The position numbers were made by a program, and so were the translations under genes. 32,570 bases of DNA, from the NCBI GenBank assembly GCA_011390635.1, contig JAABSA010000040.1, positions 1-32,570 of the forward strand, in the 5' to 3' direction. This stretch comes from Desulfotignum sp. Lineage in GTDB: Bacteria; Desulfobacterota; Desulfobacteria; Desulfobacterales; Desulfobacteraceae. Positions 840 through 27,500 of the stretch are shown piece by piece; position 1 is the stretch's first letter; each line of letters starts with the position of its first letter. The notes beneath the pieces were generated by a model, which saw only the letters and a list, made by a program, of their open reading frames with translations, was not told the DNA's origin and did not search any database.

Positions 840-3800
840 TTATAGGTCCTTTGGCTGGAGGGGCTGAACATTATAATGTGAATCACACTCTTTTTTTAAA
901 AACGCCACACCAAAGTTTTTCATTTCATAAATACAGATACCGTCCACGGTGAGAGCGCCGTCAGCCACAACCGCATACCGGCCTATGCTTTTTGATGCAT
1001 CCTTGACAGCAGAGACATCCCTGATATGGGTATGAATCCGGATATGCTGATTGGCAGGAATAATCTGTCCCCGGTATATCCATTCATGGTTTTGATCCAG
1101 GACCAATTGTGGGGTATACATTTTGGGATCAATGTCATATTTTTGCAGCAGAAAAAACCGGATTGTCTGGAGAAAAGCTTCTATTCCCAGAGATCCAGGG
1201 CAGACCGGATCCTGGTAAAAATGGGCATCAAAAAACCATTCTTCGGGGTTGTTTTTTTTGCCGGCCCGGATATATCCTTTGTTAAATCTGCCCCCGTCCA
1301 GGTCCATAACCTCAATGGTATCAATCATGCGCAGCGCTTTGGCCGGCATACCGTTGTCAGGGTCAACCGTCGAATCATCAGGTGTGATCGGGGCATCATC
1401 GCCAAATACCAGTACCGGGTCACAGGACTGCAAAGAATCAATCTTTCGGAGCTGGTTTGCATGCCGGAACCGGTTTGTATCATGAAGTTGATTTGCTTCA
1501 CAGGACTGGTTTGTATCATGGAGCTGTTTTGGATCATGCAGCTGGTTTGTTCCATGGGGCGGATGTTGGTTTTCATCATGGGAGTGACCTGCATCAAGAT
1601 CATGGATGGCAGATGCATGGTCCGGCACCAGACTGCTGTTGCGGATGCCTTTTTGTTCAGCCAGGGCCTGGGCGGTAAAAAATCCAAAATTGGTGGTGCC
1701 CTGGTATACCATCTGTCCCTGACAGAGAACCTGCACAGCAAAATTCTGGATGATCATGCCCCCGGCTTTGGATACATCGGTCATGCGCACTCGAATAGTC
1801 AAGGTGCCTGACTGCCTTGTGATGTGGGACAAAAGGCCGGCCTTTCCCCCAAGGTTGCGAAAATACAGGCGCGCATCACTGTGCAGGGCTGATCCGGCAT
1901 AGGCTGCCAGCCAGCCGCAGGGCTGGAGGGCGATTTCAAGCAAAATGCAAAACGGCAGGAAGGGGGTGCGGTTGGCAGTAAAATACCAGGCATTTTCCGG
2001 AATATCATATTGGGTTTGGATCCAGCCGCCGGGCTGCATCATCCATTGTTCATGATCTGCCGTGAGAACCCGGTCCATGAAAAAATACGGGGGCCTGGGC
2101 AGCCTGGCAATTTGCCGGTCTTTGTCAAATGTTTTGTATTTTGTACCGAAAGCATCCGAAGGTTTTCCCTGGGCAAAGGCCAGAATTGCATCTCTGGCAA
2201 ACAAGGGCCGGGGTTTGAATTTTTCGTGTAAACCATCATCCACAACTGCTTCAAATCCGGTGATGCTGGCCACTACCGTGTCGGAAGCATCCAGAAAGGT
2301 GAAATATCCCTTGATACCGTGTTCCGTGTTTTCGTTCACCGTAAAAATGATACAAACTTTGTTGTCCCTGCTGTCTTGGCCGGCATCTGTCTTGCTCTGG
2401 TGAAAAGATGCGTACATGCGAAAACTTCCCATATAGGTCGGCAGGCAGACCTGGCCGCGGTTTTCCCAGGTCCAGATAATGGCGGCCTGGAAAGCCGCAT
2501 CCACCAGCAAAGGATCTGTGACCCATTTTTCCTGTGACGGCGCTCGAAACCAGTGGTCTGGTGCCGGGGCAGGGCGGGCAGTCACTGCAATGCCTCGGTC
2601 AGAGATGCCGGTGATGGCATCAATGGCCTGGAGTGCCGGGCCATGGAATAAAATGGTTTCATAGGCTTGTGCAACGGTAATTGTGCCGGGCTGTAAATCC
2701 ATGCGGGATGAGGCGGACAACACCGGTGGTGGTGGCAGTACATTTTTTAAAACAGCCGTGGCCAGGGCATGGATATGCTCCTGTCCGGTTGTGCTGCACG
2801 AACTCAGACTGGCCTTTGCAGTGAACTTGGTTTCTTCAGGGGTGCATTTTCCCAGGTTCACCGCAAGTTTCAGGGGGGCATTTTGGGGTTTGACACCGGT
2901 GAGCAGCCGCATGTCATCCAGGCCGGCAACCATAAGACCGGGATTGTTTTTTTCAGCGGCCAGGGCCATCACCTCTGCCAGCAGGGCAAAGGGAACTACC
3001 GGCTCATGGTTGATTTTATGGGATTCCAGAATTGGGAGACTGTCCCGGCTGATTTCCAGTTCCGTCACCCGGGACAGCACAGGAGATCTCTTTTTCTCCA
3101 GACCCGGTCCCGGAGCTGTGATGACGACTTCCACAGGATGGGAATCAGGATTTTCCATTTCCCGTATCAATTGACGGCACCCGGCCTGCAAAGGAATCAG
3201 GCCCACTCCTTTTTTTGCAAATGCGCGTTTGAGACCTTCATGTACCATTCCCCCGTCCCAGGGACCCCAGTTGATGGACAAATATTTGCACCGGGGATTT
3301 TTCCGGGCAAGGGTGCCGGCGGTTTTGTTGAGCACCTCATTGGCCATGGCATAATCGCACTGACCTTGATTTCCGGTTCTGGCGGCTATGGATGAAAACA
3401 ACACCATATGGTGTAAAGGATCATCTGCAGTGGCAGCCACCAGGGCATGCAGCCCGTCCACTTTGGTGTCAAATACCCGGTTGAACTGGTCCGGTTTTTT
3501 TTCGGCAATGAGTTTGTCTTCCAATACCCCTGCCCCGTGGATGACCGCGGTGACGGGTCCGAACCTGTCCCGGATTTCATCGATGGTTTGGTACAGTTTT
3601 TGCGCATCACGGATATCTGTGGGCCAGTAGTCAGCCTGTGATCCATGGGACCGGATCTGGTCCATGGTGTCCTGGATCTGGCGGTTGGCGCAGATTGCCT
3701 GGTATTGTTGTTCAACATCTGCAGGTTTGGGTTTTTTGTGTGTGAATCCATGGGTAAGGATTGCTTTTTTCAACCTGGCCGGATCAGTGATGTTTCGGGA

Positions 3801-6800
3801 CCATTCAGGTTCGGCAAAAGGAGCCGGAGAGCGCCCCACAAGGGCAATAGCAGCAGAACTGGTTTGTGCCAGCGCAACGGCACAGGCGGCAGTCACCCCT
3901 TTTGCACCGCCGGTTATCACCACCACATCCTTGTTGGTGAGACATGGTTTCCCTTGTTTTTCCGGTGCGTTTTTCAGGGTGGGAATCAGGCAGTTGTCGC
4001 CGTTCAGCCCCATTTCCACGGCACCGTTGGTCATCATCAGTGCGGCGGCTGCTTCGATATGGGTTTTGCACGTGTTCATGTCACCGGGCAGATCCAGGGC
4101 GTGGCACAACACATCCTTCCATTCCAGGTGGGCGGTTTTTGCAAGACCAGCCAGGCCCCCGTATACCGGGTGTGTGGCAAATCCCTGGTCATCAAAGCCA
4201 AACCCGCCCCCGCCAAATGTTATGGTTGCCAGAAACGCGCCTTTCTGCCGGGCACAGGCAGTAAGGTGGGAGGCGTTTTTCCGGGTCAGCGCAAAAGCGG
4301 CCTTTACAAAAACCGCTGCGCTTTTTGCATCCATGTCCATCCATTTGTGCTGGATAATGACAATGCCGGCAGCATCCGGCAGTTGTGGAACAGGTTGTGC
4401 ACCGATATCAATGATATCCGCCGGCAGGCCCTGTTTTTCAAACTCTTTTTTAAAGAGGCCTGCAATGCCATCCTGGTCCCGGGTGATATAGATTTTTTTG
4501 TTGTCAGGCACCTGGATCCGGGATCCGTTAAAAAAACGGATCTGGTGGACGGGATACGGGGTTAACACGATTTTCTGGCGCACCAGATCCGGTGGATCAG
4601 CGTCTTTCAGCTGGTTCTGCCGTTGAGCAGCGTTTTTTTTTTGGGGGGCGTTTGCCCCGGGTTCGGTGTGGTCCAGAAAAGTAACAATATCCTGTATGGT
4701 TTTGAGTTTTGCCATGGCATCGCCGGACAGGTGTTTGGCACCATCTCCAAGGGCCTGTTCCAGGCGGGACAAAATTTCCACCCGTTTGATGGAATCAATG
4801 CCCAAATCGGATTCCAGGTTCATGCCGGGTTCCAGCATTTCCGAAGGAAAGCCTGTGAGCGAGCTGATGGTATCCACCAGAATGTTTGTGATTCGAAACG
4901 GGTCTGATTCGAGGGGTGATCCCGCATCAGGTGCCGGGAGGATTTCAGCCCCTGTGGCTGTCTCAGACACTGGGGGGGCAGCAGTTTTCGTGTCTGTACC
5001 GGATGTGCAGGCGCTGCCGATTGTGCAGGCAGTATCTGGTGTACAAAGCGTATCAGGTATGTGAACGGTACCAGCTGCCGGGAGCGGGTCGGGTGCAGAA
5101 GAAAGATCACCTGTCACGGTATGTGGTTTGGCCCGGACATCTGTCTGTGGCATCTGTGCTGTAATGGCCTGGCAGATGTCTGTCAAGGTCCTGACAGATC
5201 CGATATTTTCCGTGGTAAGTCCTTCGGTGTCTGGCAGTTCTTTTTCCAGCGCTGAAATGATTTCCACTTTTTTTATGGAGTCGATGCCAAGATCTGATTC
5301 AATATCCATGTCAGGTTCCAGCATCTCTTCCGGAAATCCGGTAAGGCGGCTTACGGTGGCAAACAGAACGGCCTGGATGTCAGGCATGCCGGTATCAGGT
5401 GCTGCCCGGTAATCGGATCGGGCTGCAGATGCAGCGGATGGGACCGGTGATGCCGGCGGCATACTTGGAACATCCGGCAAATGGATGTGACCGGGATCGG
5501 CCTGAAAAGTGGTTGCAGGTGTGTGACGGGGCGGGGTTTCACCATTGACTCTGGATGGCGGGGTGTGATGTGCCGGTGATGCCGGCGAACCGGTCCGGGG
5601 GGCAGAAACGGGATTGGGCAGAGGCATTGTGCCGGCCCCGGCCATGAACTGGCGTGTCTGTTCCATGATCGCGGCCAGGGTGTGGCCCGCCTGGGCCTGG
5701 GTTTCAAGAAATTTTTCGTGGGTTCTGGCTGTCTGTGCCTGCAAAGCCTGCATGGCTTCCAGCCCTTTCTGCACCAGGTGCATGGCATTCAGATCACGGG
5801 TGTTTCCACCCGGGGCGGCAGTGGTATCACCGGTACGGGCAGTTGTGCCTGCAGTGGCAGATGGTGTTTGATCAGCTGCGGTTGGTGCCGGTTCAGTTTG
5901 AAATGGTGCGCATGGAGCTGCAGGTGGCGCCTGTTCACCCGCAGATGGTGCCTGTGCTGTCAGGCCTGTGTTGTAAGAAGTGGTGTGCATATAAGATCCT
6001 TTTTTCAAAGCTTGCTGCGTATTCGGCCGGGTCTGTTGAAAAACCGGTGTGTGTGGGTTTTTGGTTTTTTGGGGGGGAATACCATCGTGTTTTTGTTCTG
6101 GTTTGTGTATGGTAACAGGCTTGGGGTTTGCGCCTGACAGCATTACCCGCATGCGTTTGGATTCAGGTTTTGCGACCGGATCTTCCCATTGGGTCAGATC
6201 CACGAAAAATCCCTTTTCCGCAATGCTGCACAACACCATTGCCAGATCCGCCAGACCGGATTTTTTGCCGCAGGAACCATCCATGCAGACTGCGATGGCA
6301 GACTGTGATGGTAGAATACGGTTTACCAGTCCGGTCAATACGGTCTTTGGTCCAGCTTCCACAAAAAAAGACACCCCGTTGGCATGCATGGTTTCAATGT
6401 TTTCCATGAAACGCACCGGATGCATCAGCTGATTGCCTAAAATGGATTTTATCTTTTCCGGATCCGCCTCATAGGGTTTTCCCGTGGTATTGGACATCAC
6501 CTGGATGTCGGTGGGCACAATCGTCTGATCTGCCACAAATGCGCTGAAGGGTTCGGCTGCATCCGCCACCAGATGGCTGTGAAATGCTGCGGCCACCGGC
6601 AGTTTGATTGCCCGTAATTTATTTTTTTTACATAACAGCGCCGCTTTTTCAATCTCCCGGGTGGGACCGGATAAAACCCCCTGGACCGGGCTGTTCTGAT
6701 TGGCCAGCACCAGGTCCAGATCCTGATCCGAGAGCAGTGTTGCAATTTTTTGTGCATCCGCCTGGACTGCCAGCATACTGCCGCTGTCCGAACCGGTTCT

Positions 6801-8972
6801 GCCGGCCGCTGCCATATGTTTTCCCCGGACCGCAGCCAAAGTGAGCAGGGTGCTGCCATCCATCCATCCGGCTGCATGCATGGCAGCCAGTTCTCCAAAG
6901 CTGTGGCCGCAGGCCATGTGGGGCTGGATCCCGAACCGTTTCAACACCCGGGTCATGGCAAGGCAGACAGCACCGATGGCCACCTGGGCCACCTGGGTGT
7001 GCCGCAGCCTGGATTCAGACACAGATCTGTCCTGGACATGTCGGGGCAGCGCAAACATCAATTCCGTTAGATTGTGGGGTATCTCTTTGTGGTTGCGGCT
7101 GTCACGGGCGTGGCTTTCAAAAATCTTTTGGGCAAGGCACAAGGCATCCATGGCTTCGGGAAATGTGGCAAACAGATCTTTTCCCATATCAGGATACTGG
7201 CTGCCCTGGCCGGGAAATAAAAATCCCAGTTTTCCTTCGGCCGGACCGGAACCATAAAAGAGCGGGTATTTGGACGGCCCCCCTTTTTCAACCAGGGCAC
7301 GGGCCTGGTCAAGCAGCGCATCAAGGTTGGTATCCTTTTCCAATACCATGAGCAGCCGCACAGGGTGATCTGCACAAAACGTTTTTCTGGTTTCACCGGC
7401 CTGCCAGGCGATGAGCCGGGACATTTCCCCGTCATCCATGGGATGCTCCGGGGTGACTCCGGCATGGAATGCTGCCAGTTTTTGTTGAAGAGATTGGGTA
7501 TCACGGGCTGAAAATGCGGCAATCTGCACAGATCCATCCCAGGAGACATGGGATTTTTGTCCTTCATACTCTTCCAGCACTGCATGAAAATTGCTGCCCC
7601 CGAATCCAAAAGCCGACACACCGGCCCGTCTGGGGTCATTTTTCTGCCGGGAGTATGGAACCCAGGGTTTGGACCGGTTGTTCAGGTAAAAGGCCGAGGC
7701 ATTGATATCCAGATCAGGATCCGGGACATCTGCCTTCAGTGTCCCGGGGATCACCTTGTGGTGCAGGGCCAGGGCGGCTTTTATGATGCCGGCGACACCG
7801 GCCGCAGCCTTGGTATGTCCGATCATGGATTTTACCGACCCGATGGCGGTTCTGTTTCTGTGGTTTTGTGGATCAAAACAGGATTTCAAAGCGGTAAACT
7901 CCACTTTGTCGCCCACCCGGGTGCCGGTGCCGTGGGCTTCGAGCAGTCCGATACTTGAAGGATCAATATCCGCCTGCTTGTAAGCATCCTGCAATGCCCT
8001 GCGCTGACCGTGGGCGTCCGGGGCATAGATGGCTGATGTTTTTCCGTCACTGGCAGTGCCCACCGCTTTGATGACCGCATAAATCCGGTCTTTGTCTTTT
8101 TGTGCATCTGCCAGGCGTTTGAGCACCAGCATGCCGATGCCTTCACCCAGGACTGTGCCGTCCGCATCTTTGGAAAAGGGTCTGGCATCACTGGTATGGG
8201 AAAGCACCCCGGTTTTTGCAAAACACATGTGCATGAAAATATCGTTCAGACAATCCACACCACCTGTGATGGACATATCGCATTTATGGGCGCAAAGTTC
8301 CATGACCGCAGAATGCAAAGCGGAAAGAGAGCTGGCACAGGCAGCATCACTGACATGATTGGTGCCCGACAGATTGAACCGGTTGGCAATCCTGCCGGCA
8401 ACCACATTGCCCAGCAGGCCGGGAAAAGAGTTTTCCTGCCACTGGGCATAGGATGACTGGATGGCGTGCAGAATCTGTTCTTTTTGTTCCGGCGCAATGG
8501 CTGCCTCATCCAGCGCTTTTTTCCAGATGGGGTGGCCAAGCCTTGCCCCTAAAGGAATAACCAGTTCCTGGGTGCCGGTCACCCCCAAAATAACATTGAC
8601 CCTGGCTGTGGAAAGAAAGGGATGGTCTTTGGCATATCCGGCATCTTCCAGGGCCATTTTTGCCACTTCAAGACCCAGAAGCTGGGATGTGTCAGTGGCC
8701 GTGATATTGTTGGGAGGAATGCCAAAAGCAGAGGGATCAAAATTGATTTTCGGGATAAATCCGCCCCGGGAACAATAGGTGTGGTCCGGCCGGGAGGGAT
8801 CCGGGTCAAAATAATCCCTGAGCTGCCAATGGGTGTCATCCGGGATCTCTTCAATGGCATCAACGCCGTTGAACAACAGATGCCAGAATTCTTTGAGATT
8901 ACATGATTTGGGAAAGATACATCCCATGCCGATGATAGCGATGTCTGTGGTCCGGGTGTGATCCTGTTTCAT
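840..8972 (-). CDS. pfaA: PfaA-like multidomain polyketide/PUFA-type lipid synthase (KS-AT-ACP-ACP-KR-DH-DH)
   Basis: 2710-aa iterative megasynthase. KS about 9-470, with Cys212 in DAACASS, His347 in EAHGTG and His386 in MIGHTKAA. AT about 583-890, with Ser691 in GHSFGE and His798. Two ACPs carry phosphopantetheine serines at 1232 and 1394 (LGIDSI). KR about 1680-1910, with Ser1860/1861, Tyr1874 and Asn1878. A PKS-type DH about 1980-2240 has His1985 and Asp2158 (DAAFQ). A FabA-like hotdog pair spans about 2260-2695; only the second half has the catalytic-type His (DAHFYQDPV, His2584). This order is PfaA with the DH end of PfaC fused on; PfaC's KS-CLF is absent. Linkers are Ala/Pro-rich and repetitive. 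The start at 8972 places the KS at the usual distance; an in-frame ATG at 9038 adds 22 residues without a ribosome site. pfaD lies upstream on the same strand. The expected product is a fatty acyl or polyketide lipid, not predictable from sequence. Confidence 0.92.
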   Translation of the reverse strand: MKQDHTRTTDIAIIGMGCIFPKSCNLKEFWHLLFNGVDAIEEIPDDTHWQLRDYFDPDPSRPDHTYCSRGGFIPKINFDPSAFGIPPNNITATDTSQLLGLEVAKMALEDAGYAKDHPFLSTARVNVILGVTGTQELVIPLGARLGHPIWKKALDEAAIAPEQKEQILHAIQSSYAQWQENSFPGLLGNVVAGRIANRFNLSGTNHVSDAACASSLSALHSAVMELCAHKCDMSITGGVDCLNDIFMHMCFAKTGVLSHTSDARPFSKDADGTVLGEGIGMLVLKRLADAQKDKDRIYAVIKAVGTASDGKTSAIYAPDAHGQRRALQDAYKQADIDPSSIGLLEAHGTGTRVGDKVEFTALKSCFDPQNHRNRTAIGSVKSMIGHTKAAAGVAGIIKAALALHHKVIPGTLKADVPDPDLDINASAFYLNNRSKPWVPYSRQKNDPRRAGVSAFGFGGSNFHAVLEEYEGQKSHVSWDGSVQIAAFSARDTQSLQQKLAAFHAGVTPEHPMDDGEMSRLIAWQAGETRKTFCADHPVRLLMVLEKDTNLDALLDQARALVEKGGPSKYPLFYGSGPAEGKLGFLFPGQGSQYPDMGKDLFATFPEAMDALCLAQKIFESHARDSRNHKEIPHNLTELMFALPRHVQDRSVSESRLRHTQVAQVAIGAVCLAMTRVLKRFGIQPHMACGHSFGELAAMHAAGWMDGSTLLTLAAVRGKHMAAAGRTGSDSGSMLAVQADAQKIATLLSDQDLDLVLANQNSPVQGVLSGPTREIEKAALLCKKNKLRAIKLPVAAAFHSHLVADAAEPFSAFVADQTIVPTDIQVMSNTTGKPYEADPEKIKSILGNQLMHPVRFMENIETMHANGVSFFVEAGPKTVLTGLVNRILPSQSAIAVCMDGSCGKKSGLADLAMVLCSIAEKGFFVDLTQWEDPVAKPESKRMRVMLSGANPKPVTIHKPEQKHDGIPPQKTKNPHTPVFQQTRPNTQQALKKGSYMHTTSYNTGLTAQAPSAGEQAPPAAPCAPFQTEPAPTAADQTPSATAGTTARTGDTTAAPGGNTRDLNAMHLVQKGLEAMQALQAQTARTHEKFLETQAQAGHTLAAIMEQTRQFMAGAGTMPLPNPVSAPRTGSPASPAHHTPPSRVNGETPPRHTPATTFQADPGHIHLPDVPSMPPASPVPSAASAARSDYRAAPDTGMPDIQAVLFATVSRLTGFPEEMLEPDMDIESDLGIDSIKKVEIISALEKELPDTEGLTTENIGSVRTLTDICQAITAQMPQTDVRAKPHTVTGDLSSAPDPLPAAGTVHIPDTLCTPDTACTIGSACTSGTDTKTAAPPVSETATGAEILPAPDAGSPLESDPFRITNILVDTISSLTGFPSEMLEPGMNLESDLGIDSIKRVEILSRLEQALGDGAKHLSGDAMAKLKTIQDIVTFLDHTEPGANAPQKKNAAQRQNQLKDADPPDLVRQKIVLTPYPVHQIRFFNGSRIQVPDNKKIYITRDQDGIAGLFKKEFEKQGLPADIIDIGAQPVPQLPDAAGIVIIQHKWMDMDAKSAAVFVKAAFALTRKNASHLTACARQKGAFLATITFGGGGFGFDDQGFATHPVYGGLAGLAKTAHLEWKDVLCHALDLPGDMNTCKTHIEAAAALMMTNGAVEMGLNGDNCLIPTLKNAPEKQGKPCLTNKDVVVITGGAKGVTAACAVALAQTSSAAIALVGRSPAPFAEPEWSRNITDPARLKKAILTHGFTHKKPKPADVEQQYQAICANRQIQDTMDQIRSHGSQADYWPTDIRDAQKLYQTIDEIRDRFGPVTAVIHGAGVLEDKLIAEKKPDQFNRVFDTKVDGLHALVAATADDPLHHMVLFSSIAARTGNQGQCDYAMANEVLNKTAGTLARKNPRCKYLSINWGPWDGGMVHEGLKRAFAKKGVGLIPLQAGCRQLIREMENPDSHPVEVVITAPGPGLEKKRSPVLSRVTELEISRDSLPILESHKINHEPVVPFALLAEVMALAAEKNNPGLMVAGLDDMRLLTGVKPQNAPLKLAVNLGKCTPEETKFTAKASLSSCSTTGQEHIHALATAVLKNVLPPPPVLSASSRMDLQPGTITVAQAYETILFHGPALQAIDAITGISDRGIAVTARPAPAPDHWFRAPSQEKWVTDPLLVDAAFQAAIIWTWENRGQVCLPTYMGSFRMYASFHQSKTDAGQDSRDNKVCIIFTVNENTEHGIKGYFTFLDASDTVVASITGFEAVVDDGLHEKFKPRPLFARDAILAFAQGKPSDAFGTKYKTFDKDRQIARLPRPPYFFMDRVLTADHEQWMMQPGGWIQTQYDIPENAWYFTANRTPFLPFCILLEIALQPCGWLAAYAGSALHSDARLYFRNLGGKAGLLSHITRQSGTLTIRVRMTDVSKAGGMIIQNFAVQVLCQGQMVYQGTTNFGFFTAQALAEQKGIRNSSLVPDHASAIHDLDAGHSHDENQHPPHGTNQLHDPKQLHDTNQSCEANQLHDTNRFRHANQLRKIDSLQSCDPVLVFGDDAPITPDDSTVDPDNGMPAKALRMIDTIEVMDLDGGRFNKGYIRAGKKNNPEEWFFDAHFYQDPVCPGSLGIEAFLQTIRFFLLQKYDIDPKMYTPQLVLDQNHEWIYRGQIIPANQHIRIHTHIRDVSAVKDASKSIGRYAVVADGALTVDGICIYEMKNFGVAFLKKECDSHYNVQPLQPKDL
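1452..1547 (-). repeat. Degenerate repeat encoding an Asn/Gln/His linker within the FabA-type DH pair
   Basis: Within the megasynthase the stretch around residues 2462-2510 repeats a NQLHDTN-like unit (NQLHD, KQLHD, NQLHD, then NRFRHANQL). At DNA level units such as TTTGTATCATG and TTTGGATCATG recur about every 18-21 bp. The repeats separate the two hotdog halves of the terminal dehydratase. Such tracts usually arise by slippage and act as flexible spacers; the unusual composition is visible, the role is inferred. Confidence 0.75.
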
Positions 8973-9083
8973 AAATAGCTGCTTTAACAATAAAAAGGTT
9001 TTAGAAAGGAATATATCTGTCTGGAACCTGGAAATCATCCATTGGCAGGGGTTTTGACAAAACTTTTACACAGGACGGGGGGA

Positions 9084-9164
9084 CAGAACCGTACCTTTCG
9101 GGATGGCGGTCAGAACCTGATCTTTTGGGATGGCGGAGGAACCTGTCTTTCAGCATGGGGGGTG
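9084..9164. repeat. Three imperfect 27-bp tandem repeats between pfaD and the PfaA-like gene
   Basis: Units begin at 9084, 9111 and 9138. The first two match closely (CAGAACC, four variable bases, CTTT then GGGATGGCGG); the third is diverged (GGAACCTGTCTTT). They fill most of the 217-bp gap between the two lipid-synthase genes. I see no promoter or open gene there. The repeats may be a slippage product or hold a processing or attenuation structure. Confidence 0.7.
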
Positions 9165-9189
9165 ACCAGTCTATTTGGGGATGAGCCGG

Positions 9190-10776
9190 TCATGCATAAG
9201 ATTTTTCGCCGGCCAGGGCCAGTATCCGGTCTTTTTCCATGGGAAATACCGATGATGTTCCCATGGGCAGTGCAATACCCTGGGTTTTTAAAAACATGGC
9301 CCGGGTGATGACACAGGCACCGAACAACAAATTCATGGCCAGATCTGCGGTTCTGCGGTTTTCAGGACCGGCAAGAAAACTGTTTTGGGCCCACAGGTTA
9401 AAGGCACCCATGGCCGGGCCGCACCAGATCTGGTAATCCATTTTGCGCTGTGCGTTTCCCTGGATGGCCCATTGGGAACTCTGACCTAAATAGGACCGGA
9501 ACACCAGGGCCATTTTGTGTTTTGCATCCGATTGTGCTTTGTCGATCTGGCCGGGCATTTTTCTGGATACAAAAAAATCTTTGGTTGCCTGCCAGGCTGT
9601 CTCAAAATCTGTCTGCAGAAATTTGGTTTCGATTTCCTGTCGTGCAGCTTCCGGGATATCTGCAAAATTGTCATATGCCCGGTACAGCTGATACAGCTTT
9701 TCCGCCCGCAACGGAAACAGGGTGCCCCGTTTCAGCACCTGGACCCGGGCACCTATCTCAAACATGTCGGCTGCCGGTGCCATGGCCACATCCGCCTGTT
9801 CTGCCTGGCACAGCAGTTCTTTGACCTCCTGGCTGATCCCTGCTTCCACACAGGACTGGTTGATGGATCCGGTCAGAATATAGGCCGCTCCCATGCCGAA
9901 GGCGGCAGCAGCTGACTCTGGTGTGGCAATGCCCCCGGCCAGCCCCACACACAGATCAGAAGGATATCGGTATTGTTCCATGAACTGGTTTTTAAGGGTT
10001 ATCATGGTGGGCAAAAGGGCCAGGGCCGGCCTGTTGTCTGTGTGTCCCCCGGAATCTGCTTCTGCGGTCAGGTCCTGGGCCATGGGGATATACTGTGACA
10101 GCGCAGCTTCCTGCCGGGTGATCAGATGTTTTTGTTCCAGCAGGCTGATAATTTTTTGGGGAGGCGGTGAAAAAAACTGGCGCGCAATCTCGACCCTGGA
10201 AACCTTGGCAATAATCCGGTTCGGGGCAATGACCTGCCCGTCAGGTGTCTGGTGAATCCCCTTGACCCGGTAATAGACCAGAGCCGGGGTCATGCGCATG
10301 AAGGCGGCCGCACTGACCAGGCGGATGCCATGGTCCAGATATAGCTGTACAGTCGCCATTTCATGGTCCGGATCTGACAGGGAATGAATCAAATTAAAGC
10401 CAAACGGTTTGTCCGGCAAACCGGATGTCAGGTGCACAGCCGCTTTCCGGATGTTTTCCAACGAAAGGCCGCCTGCTCCGAAAAACCCCACCATGCCGTT
10501 GTCAGCCATGGTTTCCACCATCTGGACCGAGGAGATGCCGTTGGCCATGGCCCCGGCCACATAGGGATAGGCAAGGCTGTGCCGGCGGGTGAAGGTTTTG
10601 TCCCCCAGGGCATCAAGGCAGATTGCCGGTGCAAATGCCGTGAACAAAAACGCACTGTTTTCATGGGATTTGCCGGGATAGGTATGCCTGAAACACACCT
10701 GGTTGTTCCCGCTGGTCACAAATATGGGTTTTGAAATCTGAAAAAGGGCGGATCTGATGGCTTCCGGGGTATTCAT
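9190..10776 (-). CDS. pfaD: PfaD-like enoyl reductase (FMN TIM-barrel, nitronate monooxygenase superfamily)
   Basis: 528-aa PfaD homologue, close to the family's usual size of about 540. PfaD is the stand-alone enoyl reductase that works in trans with PfaA-type synthases, reducing the 2,3-double bond of the growing acyl-ACP. Visible family features are the N-terminal PEAIRSALFQISKPIFVTS, GAGGLSLENI, an FNLIHS segment, and the glycine-rich barrel strand GLAGGIATPESAAAAFGMGA followed by YILTGSINQ. The conserved C-terminal YQIWCGPAMGAFNLW segment is also present. The start at 10776 (MNTPEAIRS) fits family length; an ATG at 10848 would add 24 residues with no better ribosome site. It precedes the PfaA-like gene on the same strand by 217 bp and follows xerD by 90 bp. 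The pairing strongly implies they form one lipid-synthase system. Confidence 0.93.
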   Translation of the reverse strand: MNTPEAIRSALFQISKPIFVTSGNNQVCFRHTYPGKSHENSAFLFTAFAPAICLDALGDKTFTRRHSLAYPYVAGAMANGISSVQMVETMADNGMVGFFGAGGLSLENIRKAAVHLTSGLPDKPFGFNLIHSLSDPDHEMATVQLYLDHGIRLVSAAAFMRMTPALVYYRVKGIHQTPDGQVIAPNRIIAKVSRVEIARQFFSPPPQKIISLLEQKHLITRQEAALSQYIPMAQDLTAEADSGGHTDNRPALALLPTMITLKNQFMEQYRYPSDLCVGLAGGIATPESAAAAFGMGAAYILTGSINQSCVEAGISQEVKELLCQAEQADVAMAPAADMFEIGARVQVLKRGTLFPLRAEKLYQLYRAYDNFADIPEAARQEIETKFLQTDFETAWQATKDFFVSRKMPGQIDKAQSDAKHKMALVFRSYLGQSSQWAIQGNAQRKMDYQIWCGPAMGAFNLWAQNSFLAGPENRRTADLAMNLLFGACVITRAMFLKTQGIALPMGTSSVFPMEKDRILALAGEKSYA

Positions 10777-10866
10777 GGGTGTTTTTTTTCCGAGCAAAAG
10801 GGTTATGGGCAAGCCTGTCTCATACCACAAAAAGATTTCAATGATCAAGCCATTGTAAATCCAAGG

Positions 10867-15051: not shown

Positions 15052-16514
15052 TGGCACAGCAGATCCCCATTACCCCGGAGGTTGTAAAAAAACAGCTGGA
15101 TGAAATACTGGCCCGGGAAATCACCTCTTTTGTCGATGTGGATTTTGATGCGGCCATGATGTCTTTCAACCTGGCCACCATAGCCTGTATCACCCTGATT
15201 GTGGAACGGGAAAAAGAAATCAAGCAATATGTGGAATTTCCCCCGGAACGTTATGTGCTGGAAGATTTTATGGCAGAATTGACAGACATCGGCCTGGAAC
15301 ATGATGATTATCTTGAAGCAGCTGTGCATGCGTGTTTTGAAAAAGGATACATGCGCAAAGATGATGACCGGCAATTGTATGCTGAAATGCCGGCCTTTAT
15401 GATGGCAGGTCTCTTGGATTCCATGTTTCCGGGTATGCAGGGCATAAACCTGATTGCCTTTGTCCTCCAGATGAATGAAGAGGTGAATGCCGGCCGCAAA
15501 AGCCTGGATCTTGCCAAAAAAAGTTTTGCAGCATCCCTCAAGTCCCGGGGGGTATCTGTATCTGGTCACAATGCCACCAGGCGGGCTTCTGAAATGGTGG
15601 CAGGTAAAATAAAAGCGGTTCAAAAGAACAAAGAAATTGCCAGAAAACTGAAAAAAGAAAACCTGGACCGGCTTTCCAGGCTGGTAAAGACCCGGCGTAA
15701 AAAATCAGACGAATATATTCAGAAAGTCCAGGTAAAAGATGTGTTTGACAAGGGCCCCACACCAGAGGAGATAGAAGAGCGCAAAGCCCAGGTCGAAGAG
15801 GCCCGGGAATCTGCCCGCAAAGCAGCAGAGCTGGCCAGGCAGCTGGCGGAAAAAGACCAGAAAATAAAGGAAGCGGAAATCCTGGCAAAGGATGCGGCAG
15901 ACCAGCTTGGGCTTTTGAAGGAAAAAGAAAAGCAGTTGCAGGATGCCAGTGAAAAAGCCGCCAGAGCAGAGGAACGGGCAGCTATGCTGGAAGCAAAGGA
16001 AGCGGATATGGCCCGGCGGGAAGCGGAACTCAAGGCCATGGAGGAGCGTATCCGCTCAGAAGAAGCAAAGATGAGACAGCAAAAGGATGCAGCTGTTTTT
16101 TCGGATACCCCGGACCCTGCAGATGCAGTTTTGCAGGATCAAAATGAGGATGAAGCGGATATCGCATCCAGAATTGCCGCTTTTGAAAGTGACCTGGCCA
16201 TGGCCTGCCCGCTGTGCCGGAACGGGAAAATTGTTACCAATACAACAGGCAAGGGCAAAGAATATTTTTCGTGTACAAACAGTGACTGCAGGTTTGTCAG
16301 CTGGGATAAACCCTATCATTTTGAATGCCCGCTGTGTAAAAACCCGTTTTTAACCCAAACAACCTCCCCGGATGGGGGAAACGGACTCAAATGCCCCAGG
16401 GCATCCTGTTCCTATTCCCAGCAAAACCTGAATGATCCAAAATTGAATATCCCGGATTCCCCGGCAGAACCCAGAAAAAAAAGAAAGGTTGTCAGAAGAA
16501 AAAAAAGAAGCTGA
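15051..16514 (+). CDS. Coiled-coil protein with two C-terminal topoisomerase-type zinc ribbons
   Basis: 487 aa. The N-terminal 170 residues are mainly helical and of unknown type. Residues about 180-355 are a long charged coiled coil (repeated EKE, ARAEERAAMLEAKEADMARR). Two zinc ribbons follow: Cys386/Cys389 with Cys408/Cys413, and Cys426/Cys429 with Cys448/Cys453. This spacing matches the C4 zinc finger at the C-terminus of bacterial topoisomerase I. A basic tail (RKKRKVVRRKKRS) ends the protein and may bind nucleic acid. The ATG at 15051 is preferred to the GTG at 15048. It overlaps the gene before (TGATG) and mqnE after (TGATG). A DNA-associated structural role with the ParA ATPase is inferred. 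Confidence 0.85.
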   Translation: MAQQIPITPEVVKKQLDEILAREITSFVDVDFDAAMMSFNLATIACITLIVEREKEIKQYVEFPPERYVLEDFMAELTDIGLEHDDYLEAAVHACFEKGYMRKDDDRQLYAEMPAFMMAGLLDSMFPGMQGINLIAFVLQMNEEVNAGRKSLDLAKKSFAASLKSRGVSVSGHNATRRASEMVAGKIKAVQKNKEIARKLKKENLDRLSRLVKTRRKKSDEYIQKVQVKDVFDKGPTPEEIEERKAQVEEARESARKAAELARQLAEKDQKIKEAEILAKDAADQLGLLKEKEKQLQDASEKAARAEERAAMLEAKEADMARREAELKAMEERIRSEEAKMRQQKDAAVFSDTPDPADAVLQDQNEDEADIASRIAAFESDLAMACPLCRNGKIVTNTTGKGKEYFSCTNSDCRFVSWDKPYHFECPLCKNPFLTQTTSPDGGNGLKCPRASCSYSQQNLNDPKLNIPDSPAEPRKKRKVVRRKKRS

Positions 16515-17616
16515 TGAACATAACATTCACGGATGAACGGCTGGAAAAAATTTTGGCCAAAGCCAGGCAGGGCTCCCGTCTTTCAAAAGAAGACGGGATT
16601 TGTATTTATGAAACAAAAGATCTCATGGGCGTGGGTATGATTGCCAACGAGGTGCGGTCTGCCCGGCACGGCAAAAAAGCCTATTATATTTATAACCAGC
16701 ATCTGAACTATACCAATATCTGCAAAAACCGTTGTCAATTCTGTGCCTATGCAAAGGACAGAAAAGAATCCGGTGCCTATGCCTGGTCCATAAAAGAGAT
16801 TGAACAGCGCCTGATGGATCGTATTGATGAACCCGTGGATGAGCTGCACATAGTGGGCGGACTCAATGAAGCACTGGGGTTTGAATATTATATCGACCTG
16901 TTGAAAACCGTTAAGCGGATCCGGCCCGCTGCCACCATCAAGGCCTTTACCTGTGTGGAAATCGATTACCTGTCCCGACTGTCCGGCCTGGGTATCGACC
17001 AGACCATTGCGCAGCTGAAAGCAGCCGGTCTTGGGATGATGCCCGGGGGCGGGGCCGAGATACTCAACACCCGGATCCATGATACGCTGTTTCCAAAAAA
17101 GATCGACCATACCCGATGGACCCATATTGTCAAGGCAGTTCACAAAGCAGGCATTAAAACCAATGCCACCATGTTGTACGGCCATATTGAAACCATTGAG
17201 GAGCGGGTGGCGCATCTTATAACCCTCAGGGAGATCCAGGATGAAACCGGCGGGTTTTCCGCTTTTATCCCCTTGGCATTTCATTCACAGAACACAAAAC
17301 TGTCTCACCTGCCTCCCACCACGGCCATGGATGATCTCAAGGCAGTGGCGGCAGCCCGCCTGATGCTGGACAATTTCGACCATATCAAGGCCTATTGGGT
17401 GATGATCGGCGAGCCCCTGGCCCAGGTGGCCTTAAGTTTCGGGGCCGATGATCTGGACGGCACCATTATGGAGGAGCGCATCACCCACACGGCCGGTGCC
17501 AGATCCGCCAAAGGCCTGACCCAGAACCAGATGGAGACCATGATCCGCAAATCCGGATATGAACCGGTACAGCGCGATTCTTTTTACAATCCAAAAACAG
17601 ATGCAGCCATAAAACC

Positions 17617-17620
<4 letters not shown>
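16514..17620 (+). CDS. mqnE: Aminodeoxyfutalosine synthase MqnE
   Basis: 368-aa radical SAM enzyme that joins 3-[(1-carboxyvinyl)oxy]benzoate with an adenosyl radical from SAM to give 6-amino-6-deoxyfutalosine, in the futalosine route to menaquinone. The cluster motif is CKNRCQFC (Cys70, Cys74, Cys77), preceded by the family string NYTNIC. MPGGGAEIL and GFSAFIPLAFH are shared with the MqnC/MqnE/CofH group. Length is normal. The start overlaps the preceding stop by one base and its own stop overlaps mqnC as ATGA, so the genes are coupled. MqnE rather than MqnC is chosen because of HIVGGLNEALGFEYY and the neighbouring, clearer MqnC. Confidence 0.95.
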
Positions 17621-18675
<1,055 letters not shown>

Positions 18676-18688
18676 CGGTGTCGGGAAC

Positions 18689-19903
18689 ATGACGGCACCG
18701 GGATCCGGCATCAGGTTTATCAGAGAACCCGTCCAGCCCAAAACCTTCCGGGCCGGGTGGGTGATCAAAGATCCCTGGACCATTGTGGAAAATGGCTTTG
18801 TTGCAGTGGCAGGCGGGCAGATCCGGAAAATTATGACCAGCGCGCCCAAAGGGGAAGCAATCGTGGACTGCGGACCCGGCATACTCATGGCACCGCTGGT
18901 CAATACCCATCTGCATCTGGAATTGTCGGCCCTCCAGGGTCGGCTGCCCTTTGACAAAGGGTTCTCATCCTGGGTGGCGGCCCTGCTTGCACAAAGGGAG
19001 GCCGCCGGCACCCGGACCCTTGCTGCTGCTGCATACAAAGCTGCCGGATCACTGAAGGATCTGGGGGTGGGCCTGGTGGGGGAGGTATCCACCCTGGGCA
19101 TCACACAGGCTGCGTTGTCAGACCTGTCAGTTGCCGGTGTCTGGTTCAGAGAATACCTGGGGGATGAAAGCCAGAATATCCACCCGGGGGATGAAAGCCT
19201 GCATATCCGCCTGCAGCAAGGGTTTCCTCTTTCATTGTCAGCGGCAGGCCATGGGCCCCACACCACCTCTCCACATCTGCTGACTGCTGTAAAACACCGC
19301 ACCCGTGCGGCCGGGCTTGTTTTTTCCATCCATGTGGCGGAATCTGATGTGGAAATGGATTTTATTGCCGGCACAAGGGGGAGCGGATGGAGAGCGTTTC
19401 TCTCTTCCCGGGGAATTGATACACGCACCTGGCCTGTGGGGAACAAAACCCCTGTGGCGTATCTCAACCATCTGGGATTGCTGGATGACCATACGCTGGG
19501 AGTGCACCTGCTCCATGTCACAGACCGGGATCTGGATATCCTGGCAGAAACCGGGTGCAAAATCTGCCTGTGTCCCAGAAGCAACCAGAATCTGCATGCC
19601 GGGCTGCCTGATATCGCATCCCTGCTGGCCCGGAACCTGGCACCGGCCCTGGGGACTGACAGCCTTGCCTCCTGCGGTTCTCTGGGGATTTTTGATGAAA
19701 TGGCCTTTGTTCGGCAGCATTATCGGGCCATCTCCCTGCCTGACATTCTGGCCATGGCCACGGTGAACGGTGCAGCTGCCCTGGGTCTGGGCCGGTACTG
19801 GGGAACCCTTGACAAAGGGAAACAAGCGCAATTTTTATATCTGGAGATTGGGGCACGCACCCCGGCCGATGTGATGGAAAAGGTGACATCCTGTGAAATC
19901 TGA
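18689..19903 (+). CDS. mqnX: Aminodeoxyfutalosine deaminase (amidohydrolase family)
   Basis: 404-aa metal-dependent amidohydrolase, likely converting 6-amino-6-deoxyfutalosine to futalosine. The metal site is visible as His74 and His76 (NTHLHLE), His215 (SIHVAESDVE), a later His at 276 and Asp324 (LGTDSLAS). The GHGPHTTSP string fits the subgroup. The start at 18689 is chosen because it places the N-terminal beta domain at its usual length and GGGA precedes it; a start at 18635 would overlap mqnC heavily. Its stop overlaps the mqnA start by 11 bases. A generic chlorohydrolase is the alternative, but position between mqnC and mqnA supports the futalosine role. Confidence 0.88.
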   Translation: MTAPGSGIRFIREPVQPKTFRAGWVIKDPWTIVENGFVAVAGGQIRKIMTSAPKGEAIVDCGPGILMAPLVNTHLHLELSALQGRLPFDKGFSSWVAALLAQREAAGTRTLAAAAYKAAGSLKDLGVGLVGEVSTLGITQAALSDLSVAGVWFREYLGDESQNIHPGDESLHIRLQQGFPLSLSAAGHGPHTTSPHLLTAVKHRTRAAGLVFSIHVAESDVEMDFIAGTRGSGWRAFLSSRGIDTRTWPVGNKTPVAYLNHLGLLDDHTLGVHLLHVTDRDLDILAETGCKICLCPRSNQNLHAGLPDIASLLARNLAPALGTDSLASCGSLGIFDEMAFVRQHYRAISLPDILAMATVNGAAALGLGRYWGTLDKGKQAQFLYLEIGARTPADVMEKVTSCEI

Positions 19904-20723
19904 CAATCTGAATATGGGAAGAATCAGTTATATCAATGCATCTCCGGTCTATTACGGTCTGGACCACGGCCTTACACCCGACTGGCTGACCCTGGTGACG
20001 GATGTGCCGGCTGCCCTGAACCAGCAGATAACGGCGGGTGATATTGATATCAGTCCCATCTCCGCGGCATATTATGCCATGCACCATACGGAACTGCTCC
20101 TGCTGCCGGATTTTTCCATCTCCTGCCATGGACCGGTGATGAGCGTGATCTGTGCCGCCAATTTTCCTTTAGATGAGCTAACCGGAAAAACCGTGATGTT
20201 CTCCAGAGAATCAGCCACCGGTGCAGCGTTTTTAAAAATGATTTTTGCCCGGCGGGGGGTGGTACCTGATTTCAGGGTGGGTTCGGCGGGAGACATCAAC
20301 GCGATTCCAAAAGATGTGGATGCGGTCATGGTCATAGGCGATGCCGCCCTGACCCAGCCCTGGAAGCAGCGGTTCTCATATTGTTTTGATCTGGGTCAGA
20401 TCTGGTATGAAATGATGCACCTTCCATTTGTGTTTGCGGTTTGGGTGGTCCGCAGATCCTATGCAGCGGCCCATCCAAAACGCGTTGCGCAGGCAAGGGA
20501 CCTGCTTGTGGCCAGCCGGAAGGCAGGATATGCCAATCTGGAGGCGGTGATTGCCGCGGGCCAGGCAAAGCTTGGCCTGGACAGGCAGGTTGTTGCAGCG
20601 TATTATGACCGGCTGTATTGTGATCTGGATCCCCTGAAGATAAAGGCCATGACCTGTTTTTTTGATGCGTTGTATCAGCAGAAAATGCTGTCATCCCCGG
20701 CAGAGATTGCATTTTTCACTTGA
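19893..20723 (+). CDS. mqnA: Chorismate dehydratase MqnA
   Basis: 276-aa MqnA, which dehydrates chorismate to 3-[(1-carboxyvinyl)oxy]benzoate, the first committed step of the futalosine pathway. The family opening [15 protein letters not shown] is present, as are [21 protein letters not shown] and a periplasmic-binding-protein-like fold. [10 protein letters not shown] and the C-terminal YDRLYCDLD region also match. The GTG at 19893 is preferred because AAGGTGA lies about 6 bases upstream; an ATG at 19914 is the alternative and would remove seven residues. It ends the plus-strand operon; tRNA-Pro converges on it. No clear terminator is seen in the 34-bp gap. Confidence 0.95.
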
Positions 20724-24315: not shown

Positions 24316-24589
24316 ATTTTTTCAAACCTCCTTGGGAATAATTCTTCGGCCGCATTCCCTGGATCCTGTCTGGTGCTCCAAATTATAAAATGAAAGATAT
24401 GATTGTTTTCTGCAAGAATCAATGATAACGAGACTATGGTTAGGTTTTATGGAATCAAGTTTTGCAAGATGGTTGAGCTTTCGAAAAAGTCTATAATAGT
24501 TGAGGTAATCTATTGGATTTTGGAAGATTGTTTATGATTTGGTTAACAAAAAAGCAAATTCTTATCCTTTAAAAAATAGGAACTGCAAA

Positions 24590-27500
24590 ATGAATAAATT
24601 ATCATCGATTATATTGAAATTGAGAATCATACTGTTTATAACGCTGTTCATGGTCCTGTCTTCTGTTTCTGCCCGTGCTACTTTATCAGAATATGCAGTA
24701 TCGCAACTCTACGTTTCCATCTTTAACCGCGCATCGGAAGGCGAAGGGAATCAATACTGGAGAACCCTTGAACTGGACATGGCAACTACTGCCGATGTCA
24801 TGCTGGAAACTGATGCAGCCAAAGATTATTTCGGTACCAGCTTACATTCAAACCAGGCGTTTATCGAGCACATCTATCTTAACACATTGAATAAAACCCC
24901 CTTGGATGATCCCGATGGTATTGCTCATTGGGTTGGCCTGCTGGACAGTGGGATGACCAGAGGCCAGGTCGTTTCATCTCTGGTGAGCGTAATTAACGAT
25001 TATGCGCCGGATGGGGCATATTATAATCCTGATGATGTTGTCACTGTCGCCGCCTACAATCAGTTTTTAAATCGTGTTCTCGTTTCCTCCTATATGGCGT
25101 ATACTGTTCAAAATCCGCCTGCAGATTGGGCAACTTCAACGTCATTCAGTTTTGGTTTAATCGTTACAAATGCATCCGAAACAATCCTTGATGCAATGAA
25201 TAAAATAGATGCGATTACCGGCAGAGAGATTGGTGAACTTACCATCACCGACTATTTTCCTGAAACTGGCCCGGCCGGATCTTATCTTATTTTAAAATTG
25301 GCTGCCCCTGTTTCAGATTTAGGTACAAATTTCACGGTTCTATATAATCAGAACGCATTGGATATCAATACAATTGTCAAAACAGGAGAAGATACCCTGC
25401 AGGTAATGATTCCCGCAGATGCCGAATCCGGTGATATTCAAATTGCTTCCGGAAGTTCTTTGAGCAATACCGTACCGTTTTTTGTGACAACCCCTGTCAC
25501 CACCACGCTGCTTTCTCAATCTGTCAGCCCGTCTGCAACCGATCAGGTGATCAATTACAATGATGACATAATGATCACCATACCGCCTGATATCCTGGAT
25601 ACCACCAGAACCCTGTCCATTTCAAAAGTAGAAGGTGCCCCGGTGAATGCAACTGCCCCGTTTTCACCAGCTTCCGCCTTTGATGTCAGTATTGAGGGGA
25701 TGGATCAACTTACCGATTATATAGAAATTACAGTCAAATATGATCCGGAGATCCTGAACCCGGATTATCCGGCAGGCGATCAATTTACAGCCATGCGGTG
25801 GGATGAGGCGGAACAGTCCTGGCTTCCCCTGCCTTATCAGGTAAACAGCGAGTCGAAGTCCCTCAGCATGTATACAGATCATTTGAGCACCTTTGTATGG
25901 TCTGTCATTACTTCAGTTGCAGAAGGAATAGACACAATTATTGAAGAAAACATTCTCAATGATGTTTATATTACCCCTGAAGGCAATTTCAGGCTTCTTT
26001 ACAGCAAATCAGCCATAAGCGGGCACACCAATTTAAATGATGCAACCTGGGAAAGAATAACCTATAAAAATCCTGTTTATCCCCTGGCGGTGTACCAGGC
26101 GGAACATCCCAAGTTTATTCAGGATATGGGAAACCTTCTTGAAACAGCATTGCAGAGTTATGTCGGTGTGAATAAATTCAAGGATCCGATCACAAAACCA
26201 GGTAAATTCTGGGGCACCTCAAGACACCCGATTACTGTTAAAATTGATTCGTGGTGGCTGCAACTTGCTGGTGCTCCCAATTATGAAAAACTGTTTGAAA
26301 ACATACATCTGCCCACCCTGTATTTAAACGATTTTGATCCGCCTGGTTATTTTGCTTATGGAACAATAGGCCATGAACTGTTTCACCGGGTTCAGGCTGA
26401 ATATTATGGAATAAATGGATTTCTGTTCCCACACTACTTGTGGTGGATCGAAGCTGCTGCGGAATATGCCGGATTCCGGGCCGCATGGCCGAACAACCGG
26501 TCAGATGGTCACCTGAATGGCATCAAAGCGGATTTTTTCAATTATCCTCTCAACCATACTGGTGTTCCTTCCGGCTGGGGGGAAAGAGAATATCAATATG
26601 CTGCATCGGTTTTTATTCAGTTTCTTGTGGAAAATAAGAATCTTGATTTCAGGGAGATGGTGGAATATGTTGCCCAGGGAGACCCTTTGGCCAGACTGGA
26701 TGAATTTGTGTTGTCGAAACATTCTGTATCCTTGAAAGATTATTATGCCGAGTTTGCGGCCGGGGCAATTTTTTCTGAGAATGGGTTCATGGAAAAGCTC
26801 GGGTTCAGTGCAGCTGATATTGCCGGACAGGTTGGAAAAGACAGCTTTTCCATACCTGAAAATGATACCCTGACCATAGAAGTTGCCGCTGAAAGTGATG
26901 ATATGTTGGTTAATGTTTATATTACGGAAGAAAACAAACGGTTTTCCGGCGACGGCACCCCTTCTCTGCAAGGCACGTTAAAAAATGGTGAAAGCCTTGA
27001 TATACCAGTGCGCAATTTAGGTCAATCAAACGAATTGTATCTTCTGGCAGTCACCGGTAAAGCGCACTCCATTTTGTTGGAAGATCCATACAATGACAGT
27101 ATAAACTATATTCCGCAAACAGGATTGACTGTTACAATTAAAAACAAAAACATAACCCCTGTTGAACAAATAAACCGTTCATTTACCCTGGAAGGAAACT
27201 ATCTGGCAAAGCTGTGGGGTGTGAACCTTGAGGTTCAACCAGAGGAGCCTGAGCCCGATGATCAAGAAGATCTGGTGATTGAATTTGAAGATAAACAAGG
27301 CTATCACATTAGACTGTCGCTAAAAGATTTGAGCGAGGAAACCCATGAGTGGATAACGGAGACGGAATACAGCAGATCGTTTGATGTATTTGAGGTGACG
27401 TTGCCTCAATTCCCTGCAGGCTACCATATAGGCCCCGTGGCCGTAAAAGTGGAAGTACTCGATTCTGGCATCGCTACCTGGTACATGAAAGCCAGCCATA

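Follow-up and report, generated by a model that had tools for sequence, protein, structure and literature searches.

The contig JAABSA010000040.1 of Desulfotignum sp. (Desulfobacteraceae; assembly GCA_011390635.1), here called the window and analysed over its full length of 32,570 nucleotides, carries a pfaD gene next to a pfaA gene that is extended by a FabA-type dehydratase (DH) unit. We assign a probability of roughly 0.72 to the explanation that PfaA and PfaD are part of one complete, dispersed Pfa synthase of the polyunsaturated fatty acid (PUFA) type, in which the dehydratase DH2 was relocated and which feeds head-to-head hydrocarbon synthesis, with a presumed polyunsaturated hydrocarbon as product. 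The original prediction, made from the window alone, had described a condensed synthase without the ketosynthase (KS) and chain length factor (CLF) of PfaC. Its observation is real, but it was made on half a system.

PfaA-DH2 and PfaD in the window

The window is the entire contig C40 of a draft assembly of 4.09 Mb in 98 contigs. The fusion gene pfaA-DH2 (positions 840-8972, minus strand) encodes 2710 amino acids (aa) counted from the second methionine, which is the likelier start; from the first ATG the open reading frame (ORF) spans 840-9038 on the minus strand (2732 aa). Its stop sits 839 bases from the window end at base 1, and as the window is the complete contig, the sequence past this base cannot be read. 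The protein reaches 1296 bits with the PfaA model TIGR02813 (curated cut-off 1010 bits). Pfam detects in the longer ORF a KS, an acyltransferase (AT), two PP-binding acyl carrier protein (ACP) domains, a ketoreductase (KR), a dehydratase of the polyketide synthase (PKS) type (PS-DH) and two FabA-like stretches, which confirms the domain list given before.

All domains lie on the minus strand. KS_A (7734-8948; PF00109/PF02801, residues 31-435 of the ORF) contains the cysteine motif DAACASS, and the malonyl/acyl transferase (MAT; 6285-7223; PF00698, residues 606-918) the motif GHSFG. The two ACPs, each with the motif LGIDSIK, were placed by domain match at 5004-5273 and 4659-4898 (limits approximate). 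They are followed by KR (3255-3923; PF08659, residues 1706-1928) and PS-DH (2169-3158; PF14765, Pfam match at residues 2117-2263), where PfaA of the examined outgroups ends. The weak FabA-like stretch (residues ~2301-2470) corresponds to psiDH2 (1629-2138), an inactive hotdog in which the catalytic histidine is replaced, as judged by eye. The strong one (residues ~2541-2725) is DH2 (864-1418), assigned as an active FabA-type hotdog and counterpart of the PfaC DH2 by PF07977, trees and the motif WFFDAHFYQDPVCPGSLGIEA. The catalytic motifs of KS, AT, both ACPs and DH2 are intact. A 36/18-bp tandem repeat at 1448-1564 (repeat search and alignment, strand not assigned) codes for the low-complexity sequence that links psiDH2 to DH2; this linker is rich in His, Gln and Asn and longer here than in most aligned relatives.

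The presence of PfaD beside PfaA was likewise verified. The gene (9190-10776, minus strand, within an ORF spanning 9190-10848) codes for an enoyl reductase (ER) that scores 605 bits with TIGR02814 (cut-off 449 bits) and matches the PDB PfaD chains 6lkc and 4yx6. It is the single PfaD match in the source genome. The gap between pfaD and pfaA holds a 27-bp tandem repeat (9084-9158).

PfaC, OleA and other Ole-like proteins are encoded elsewhere in the genome

By a genome-wide search for KS and FabA domains a PfaC of 1536 aa was located on contig C16. It consists of a KS with the motif DAACASS, another KS in which the cysteine motif is lacking (CLF), and a weak and a strong FabA stretch; PDB entry 6riw matches across both KS and CLF. 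This PfaC ends after DH1 (KS-CLF-psiDH1-DH1) and DH2 is absent from it. FabA domains in the genome are confined to PfaA and this PfaC, giving two FabA-type DH units in total, DH2 on PfaA and DH1 on PfaC, in place of a tandem on PfaC. Searches of the PDB with whole PfaA and whole PfaC led to PKS and fatty acid synthase entries.

On C16 the stop of pfaC overlaps the start of oleA, and oleB-like and oleC-like genes follow. The oleA candidate scores 426 bits with NF006720 (cut-off 285), a model that we take to stand for OleA, and the OleC-like protein lies above the cut-off of NF006754. An OleD-like gene on C43 is matched at 371-410 bits by oleC-adjacent genes of three outgroup loci. Two genes of the phosphopantetheinyl transferase (PPTase) family (PF01648) were found, on C43 and C41, both outside this cluster as had been expected, with the NCBIfam PPTase models below cut-off. 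A 246-aa protein without Pfam match and, by eye, with a likely transmembrane helix is encoded between oleB and oleC (L016:16383-17123); the same holds for 11 further loci of the family.

The fused unit is the counterpart of DH2 of PfaC

Relatives outside the Desulfobacteraceae have the unit order psiDH1-DH1-psiDH2-DH2 in PfaC. The first half of this series is matched by PfaC on C16 and the second half by PfaA of the window. Trees were calculated from 79 dehydratase units minus the truncated L128. In this tree of 78 units, all 39 PfaC DH1 units group together (support 100/99), and 22 fused units form a clade of 32 rows with 10 PfaC DH2 units (99/99). For a second tree 16 further long-branch or distant rows were dropped (both units of L254, L244, L047-L050, L074 and L216), among them six DH2 units that stand apart in the first tree; DH1 was recovered again (31 units, 100/100). 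The motifs differ accordingly, with about WFLTCHFxDDxVMPGTLMYECC in DH1 of the family and WF[FY]xAHF[YF]QDPVCPGSLG[IV]E in the fused DH2, and both retain His and Glu. As far as sequence comparison can tell, the fused unit on PfaA thus corresponds to DH2 of canonical PfaC, and the proposal of a PfaA joined to the DH end of PfaC was correct.

The fused unit was modelled by AlphaFold as two hotdogs (predicted local distance difference test, pLDDT, 63.5; predicted template modelling score, pTM, 0.69), and the structures retrieved by Foldseek were, as expected, FabA, double-hotdog dehydratases and in some cases thioesterases. The two-hotdog model of psiDH2 and DH2 agrees with the pairing of a pseudo and a core hotdog described for such dehydratases (PMC9667614). 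The FabA-type pair noticed earlier therefore exists as two stretches, but it is one unit of a pseudo and an active hotdog. Two separate FabA-like dehydratases on PfaA were rejected on the basis of the trees, the motifs, the structure model and that description.

The fusion is widespread in Desulfobacteraceae

The family sample comprised 59 genomes, drawn evenly from a larger group and including many drafts. PfaD is present in 52 of these, versus 33 of the 395 genomes of a phylum sample. The fusion was surveyed with a query of PKS-DH, psiDH2 and DH2 and the tally was counted by hand. It recurs in relatives, as a survey of pfaD neighbourhoods was meant to find out: 45 of 59 genomes have PKS-DH and psiDH2 within the same ORF, and in six more, all of genus g247, psiDH2 lies in ORFs of ~900-1140 aa, in G408 together with KR. 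Eight genomes were undecided. The search's own tally of 54 genomes with a match includes two matched by a PfaC-like ORF only and one match of 76 residues. All 34 high-quality family genomes were matched by a PfaA C-terminal query.

The gene arrangement varies. PfaA is split before KR in both genomes inspected of genus g253 (G410, G452), pfaA is ~18 kb from pfaD in G403, and a Desulforapulum autotrophicum metagenome-assembled genome (MAG; L168) has no pfaA within 10 kb of pfaD. The named loci (best 80 of 569) place the family as Desulfobacteraceae, with Desulfotignum (79% PfaD identity), Desulfospira, Desulfocicer and Desulfobacula.

In the phylum sample and the named loci, 61 KR-bearing ORFs have a complete 3' end, a set that contains one or more duplicate records (L069, L224) and in which PS-DH was unseen in L050 and L072; the fused unit is present in four (L150, L154, L155, L173) and absent in 57. 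Desulfobacteraceae is the record title for four of these 57 (L166, L184, L186, L215). A quick PfaD tree separates these four from the fused rows (branch support 90), with L166 closest to family f9 and L215 to f10, and therefore the title was taken as broader than the family of the window. In the outgroups examined PfaA ends near PKS-DH and PfaC holds both DH units. It is this distribution across genomes on which the direction of the move, from PfaC to PfaA, rests.

We compared 21 pfaC loci of the family including the own one, the 20 others being picked from the DH1 matches listed and not all of these. A KS-CLF PfaC is present in the other loci fetched. In all 20 loci that extend past the gene, oleA follows downstream on the same strand; stop and start overlap in 18, counted with the first possible start codon, and the remaining gaps are 63 and 1617 bases. 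In G397 (L123) the fused pfaA and pfaC-oleABC converge on one contig at a distance of ~3.6 kb.

Two other loci showed unusual arrangements. In L213, from a Myxococcaceae MAG, a 2854-aa protein combines PfaD and PfaA, with PfaD at the N-terminal end. L052 belongs to G333, a genome with two PfaD genes, and has the second PfaD beside a separate 458-aa protein that matches the AT of PfaA.

Comparison with known systems

Canonical Pfa systems (Types A and B in the 2011 survey, PMC3098273) resemble the present one in PfaA with KS-MAT-ACPs-KR(-DH), PfaC with KS-CLF, two FabA-type DH units and PfaD as ER. They differ from it in that here DH2 is on PfaA, only two ACPs and no PfaB AT were found, and the genes are spread over different contigs. 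Among Deltaproteobacteria such as Geobacter, Type I clusters with a pfaBC fusion share the frequent association of Pfa with ole; for Geobacter bemidjiensis the same source reports hentriacontanonaene (31:9), the same hydrocarbon as in Shewanella. In comparable loci (L054; L065 and L250, which share a genome) pfaD-pfaA-pfaC-oleA form one group, and PfaC carries AT, DH1 and DH2, unlike the system described here and its PfaC on C16.

From other families of the same order, G161, G232, G254, G295 and G105, which have no fusion, possess a single pfaD and pfaC followed by oleA, as here, and in G161, G232, G254 and G105 pfaA also stands behind pfaD. In contrast to the window, PfaA stops at PKS-DH where it was seen, and PfaC (2277-2393 aa, four seen whole) carries AT, DH1 and DH2. 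A change of place of DH units is also described for pfaC of Pseudoalteromonas sp. DS-12, but within pfaC and not onto PfaA (PMC3098273). The Type S cluster of Desulfobacterium autotrophicum HRM2, from the same family as the source organism (PMC3098273), may correspond to another type I synthase (see below) rather than to the dispersed Pfa system.

In the openly licensed literature we found no published description of a PfaA-DH2 fusion and no paper joining PUFA synthases and Desulfobacteraceae. Judged by its genes, the system is an Ole-coupled Pfa synthase whose architecture is a new variant, and its chemistry appears to be ordinary.

Proposed function

The following steps are derived from characterised Pfa and Ole systems. 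MAT would load the two activated ACPs, KS_A and the KS-CLF of PfaC would condense, and KR would reduce. The PKS-type DH together with PfaD would carry out the saturated steps, and DH1 on PfaC and DH2 on PfaA would dehydrate and isomerise to give cis double bonds. This assignment follows a review in which saturated steps are attributed to PKS-type DH and ER, dehydration with isomerisation to cis bonds to the FabA-type DHs, and chain lengths are divided between KS_A and KS-CLF (PMC9702510). OleA would then draw the polyunsaturated acyl chain from the ACPs and join two of them head to head, and OleD, OleC and OleB would convert its product into a long polyunsaturated olefin. In Shewanella OleA connects Pfa and Ole in vivo by taking a predicted 16:4 chain from Pfa, from which OleBCD make the 31:9 product (PMC6463001). 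If OleA off-loads the chain, the system may do without a PfaB-type AT.

The coupling of pfaC to oleA points to a polyunsaturated hydrocarbon. The idea of a different, perhaps shorter or more saturated lipid is unsupported, since both FabA-type units are present, pfaC and oleA are coupled, and the number of ACPs was reported to alter productivity and not the product profile (PMC5067506). On this last ground we also rejected the argument that few ACPs mean a different product. The 2011 survey left room for clusters with a single ACP (PMC3098273).

Several observations weigh against a dispersed Pfa-Ole system. Pfa and Ole genes are spread over three contigs of the source genome without physical linkage, and therefore their joint function is deduced from complementarity and conservation. 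PfaA has two ACPs, where EPA/DHA-type (eicosapentaenoic/docosahexaenoic acid) systems have at least four in tandem. As anticipated, no PfaB-type AT was found in the genome; PF00698 matches with E <= 1e-5 are confined to PfaA and the proteins of C98 and C44. Assignments of the later Ole steps are below their cut-offs: the OleC-like protein has 607 bits with olefin-beta-lactone-synthetase models (cut-offs 850 and 900), the OleB-like one scores below the NCBIfam cut-offs of haloalkane-dehalogenase models, and the OleD-like one has 398 bits versus 580. The HetI-like PPTase on C43 reaches 97 bits versus 370. Three same-order f3 genomes, G036 and G333 have a DH1-DH2 PfaC and no oleA in the fetched stretch. 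Concerning the relocation, six of 17 PfaC DH2 units, from distant systems, and a further one of G333 fall outside the clade of 32, and the fused units were recovered as one clade in only 18% and 0% of the bootstrap trees of the two analyses; a single relocation is therefore not proved. The confidence of the structure model is modest, and literature searches yielded no lipid data for these organisms.

Fatty acid synthesis and a possible role in phospholipids

FabF above the cut-off (493.75 bits) occurs in none of the 59 family genomes, with nine of 14 named genomes above it as control. Weaker matches are present in 23 of 59, the best with 474.6 bits in G438 just below the cut-off. In the source genome FabF, FabZ/FabA and a stand-alone FabD were not found, and a FabA-domain search gave no FabA/FabZ outside the Pfa proteins. 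Seven E. coli proteins were used as a single query on 14 family genomes and five outgroups, with matches listed to E ~1e-27; in relatives, FabZ or FabI may match more weakly than this level. A FabH-like gene is present in all 14 family genomes. Among the matches listed, FabF-sized KS ORFs occur in seven of the 14 (none in the source genome), FabZ in G452 only and ORFs of FabD size in G422, G449 and G452 alone. The five outgroups all have FabF, FabZ and FabD. AT domains in 10 family genomes are never in an ORF of less than 1369 aa; three outgroups have a FabD of 314-346 aa.

Another type I synthase of ~3900 aa (ER-KS-KS-AT-KS-ACPs-KR-DH, ER also given as NMO) was observed in three genera (G000, G403, G428) at L014:4561-16356 (C98), L269:6663-18410 and L270:950-12784, adjoining a sigma-54-type regulator and a PF01553 acyltransferase. 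It is a candidate for the core synthase of fatty acids. One more type I synthase is apparently cut by contig ends, with ER-KS-AT on C44 (L015:8208-12701) and a KR part on C41 (L255:8081-12000) beside the second PPTase-family gene.

Tentatively, we suggest that Desulfobacteraceae may have given up elongation by type II fatty acid synthesis (FAS II; FabF, FabZ/FabA, FabD) and live on the ~3900-aa synthase for saturated phospholipid chains together with the dispersed Pfa-Ole system. Pfa would then be core lipid metabolism, and the move of DH2 and the tie between PfaC-DH1 and OleA an adaptation. A core role of Type S as possible fatty acid synthase was proposed in 2011, where D. autotrophicum was noted as having neither fabA nor fabZ (PMC3098273); the family-wide pattern and the part of Pfa-Ole are new here.

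The same dispersed synthase could also chiefly supply poly- or monounsaturated chains for membrane phospholipids, with the hydrocarbon as minor or conditional product. Without FabA, FabZ and FabF, the FabA-type dehydratases of Pfa would be an anaerobic source of cis double bonds. The absence of FabA/FabZ outside Pfa in the source genome, the absence of FabF above cut-off in the family and the match of the PfaA C-terminus in every high-quality genome fit this explanation, as does the rescue of fabD loss in E. coli by pfa genes, ascribed to the MAT of PfaA (PMC8174602). However, oleA stands downstream of pfaC in every informative family locus, and the ~3900-aa synthase beside an acyltransferase gene looks like the phospholipid supplier. 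We therefore consider a chief role in phospholipids rather unlikely.

Other explanations

Compared with the dispersed synthase, a self-sufficient condensed synthase of PfaA-DH2 and PfaD without KS-CLF, whose lipid product would differ in being shorter or more saturated, is improbable. The pfaD-pfaA pair does stand without adjoining pfaC here and in many relatives, and within the window alone the description as condensed and lacking KS-CLF holds. At genome level it fails, because PfaC with KS-CLF is encoded on C16, as it is in the remaining pfaC loci retrieved from the family, and the unit absent from this PfaC is precisely the one added to PfaA.

That the genes are a decaying remnant of a Pfa system is very improbable. 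Such a fate was suggested as possible for the pfa genes of D. autotrophicum (PMC4882568), and PfaA of the Desulfamplus locus L156 appears to have broken frames, but in the window the frames are open and the catalytic motifs intact, and PfaD and the fusion are retained in most of the family genomes sampled. An assembly chimera of pfaA and a piece of pfaC, which a draft of 98 contigs might suggest, is refuted by the same fusion in the single- or few-contig genomes G428 and G403 and in the Desulfocicer vacuolatum isolate record (L155).

Other genes of the window

The region 16514-20723 encodes two radical SAM proteins of the CofH/MqnC type, an amidohydrolase and a VitK2_biosynth protein, presumably the menaquinone genes of the futalosine pathway. 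ORFs of ~1030 aa each lie at 24539-27655 and 28504-31581; one has a DUF4214 match and the other no Pfam match.

Significance

A dispersed system such as this one can resemble a minimal, incomplete synthase when a single contig is read. In this family-wide natural rearrangement the two dehydratases of FabA type belong to different proteins of a PUFA-type synthase, and therefore the individual roles of DH1 and DH2 could be tested by ordinary gene exchange. Polyunsaturated hydrocarbons are predicted in marine sulfate reducers, whose pfa genes were once called possible remnants. How membrane lipids are built without evident FAS II becomes a testable question in named isolates and, if the reading with two type I systems is true, Pfa would belong to the core lipid metabolism of these bacteria and would not be a secondary luxury.

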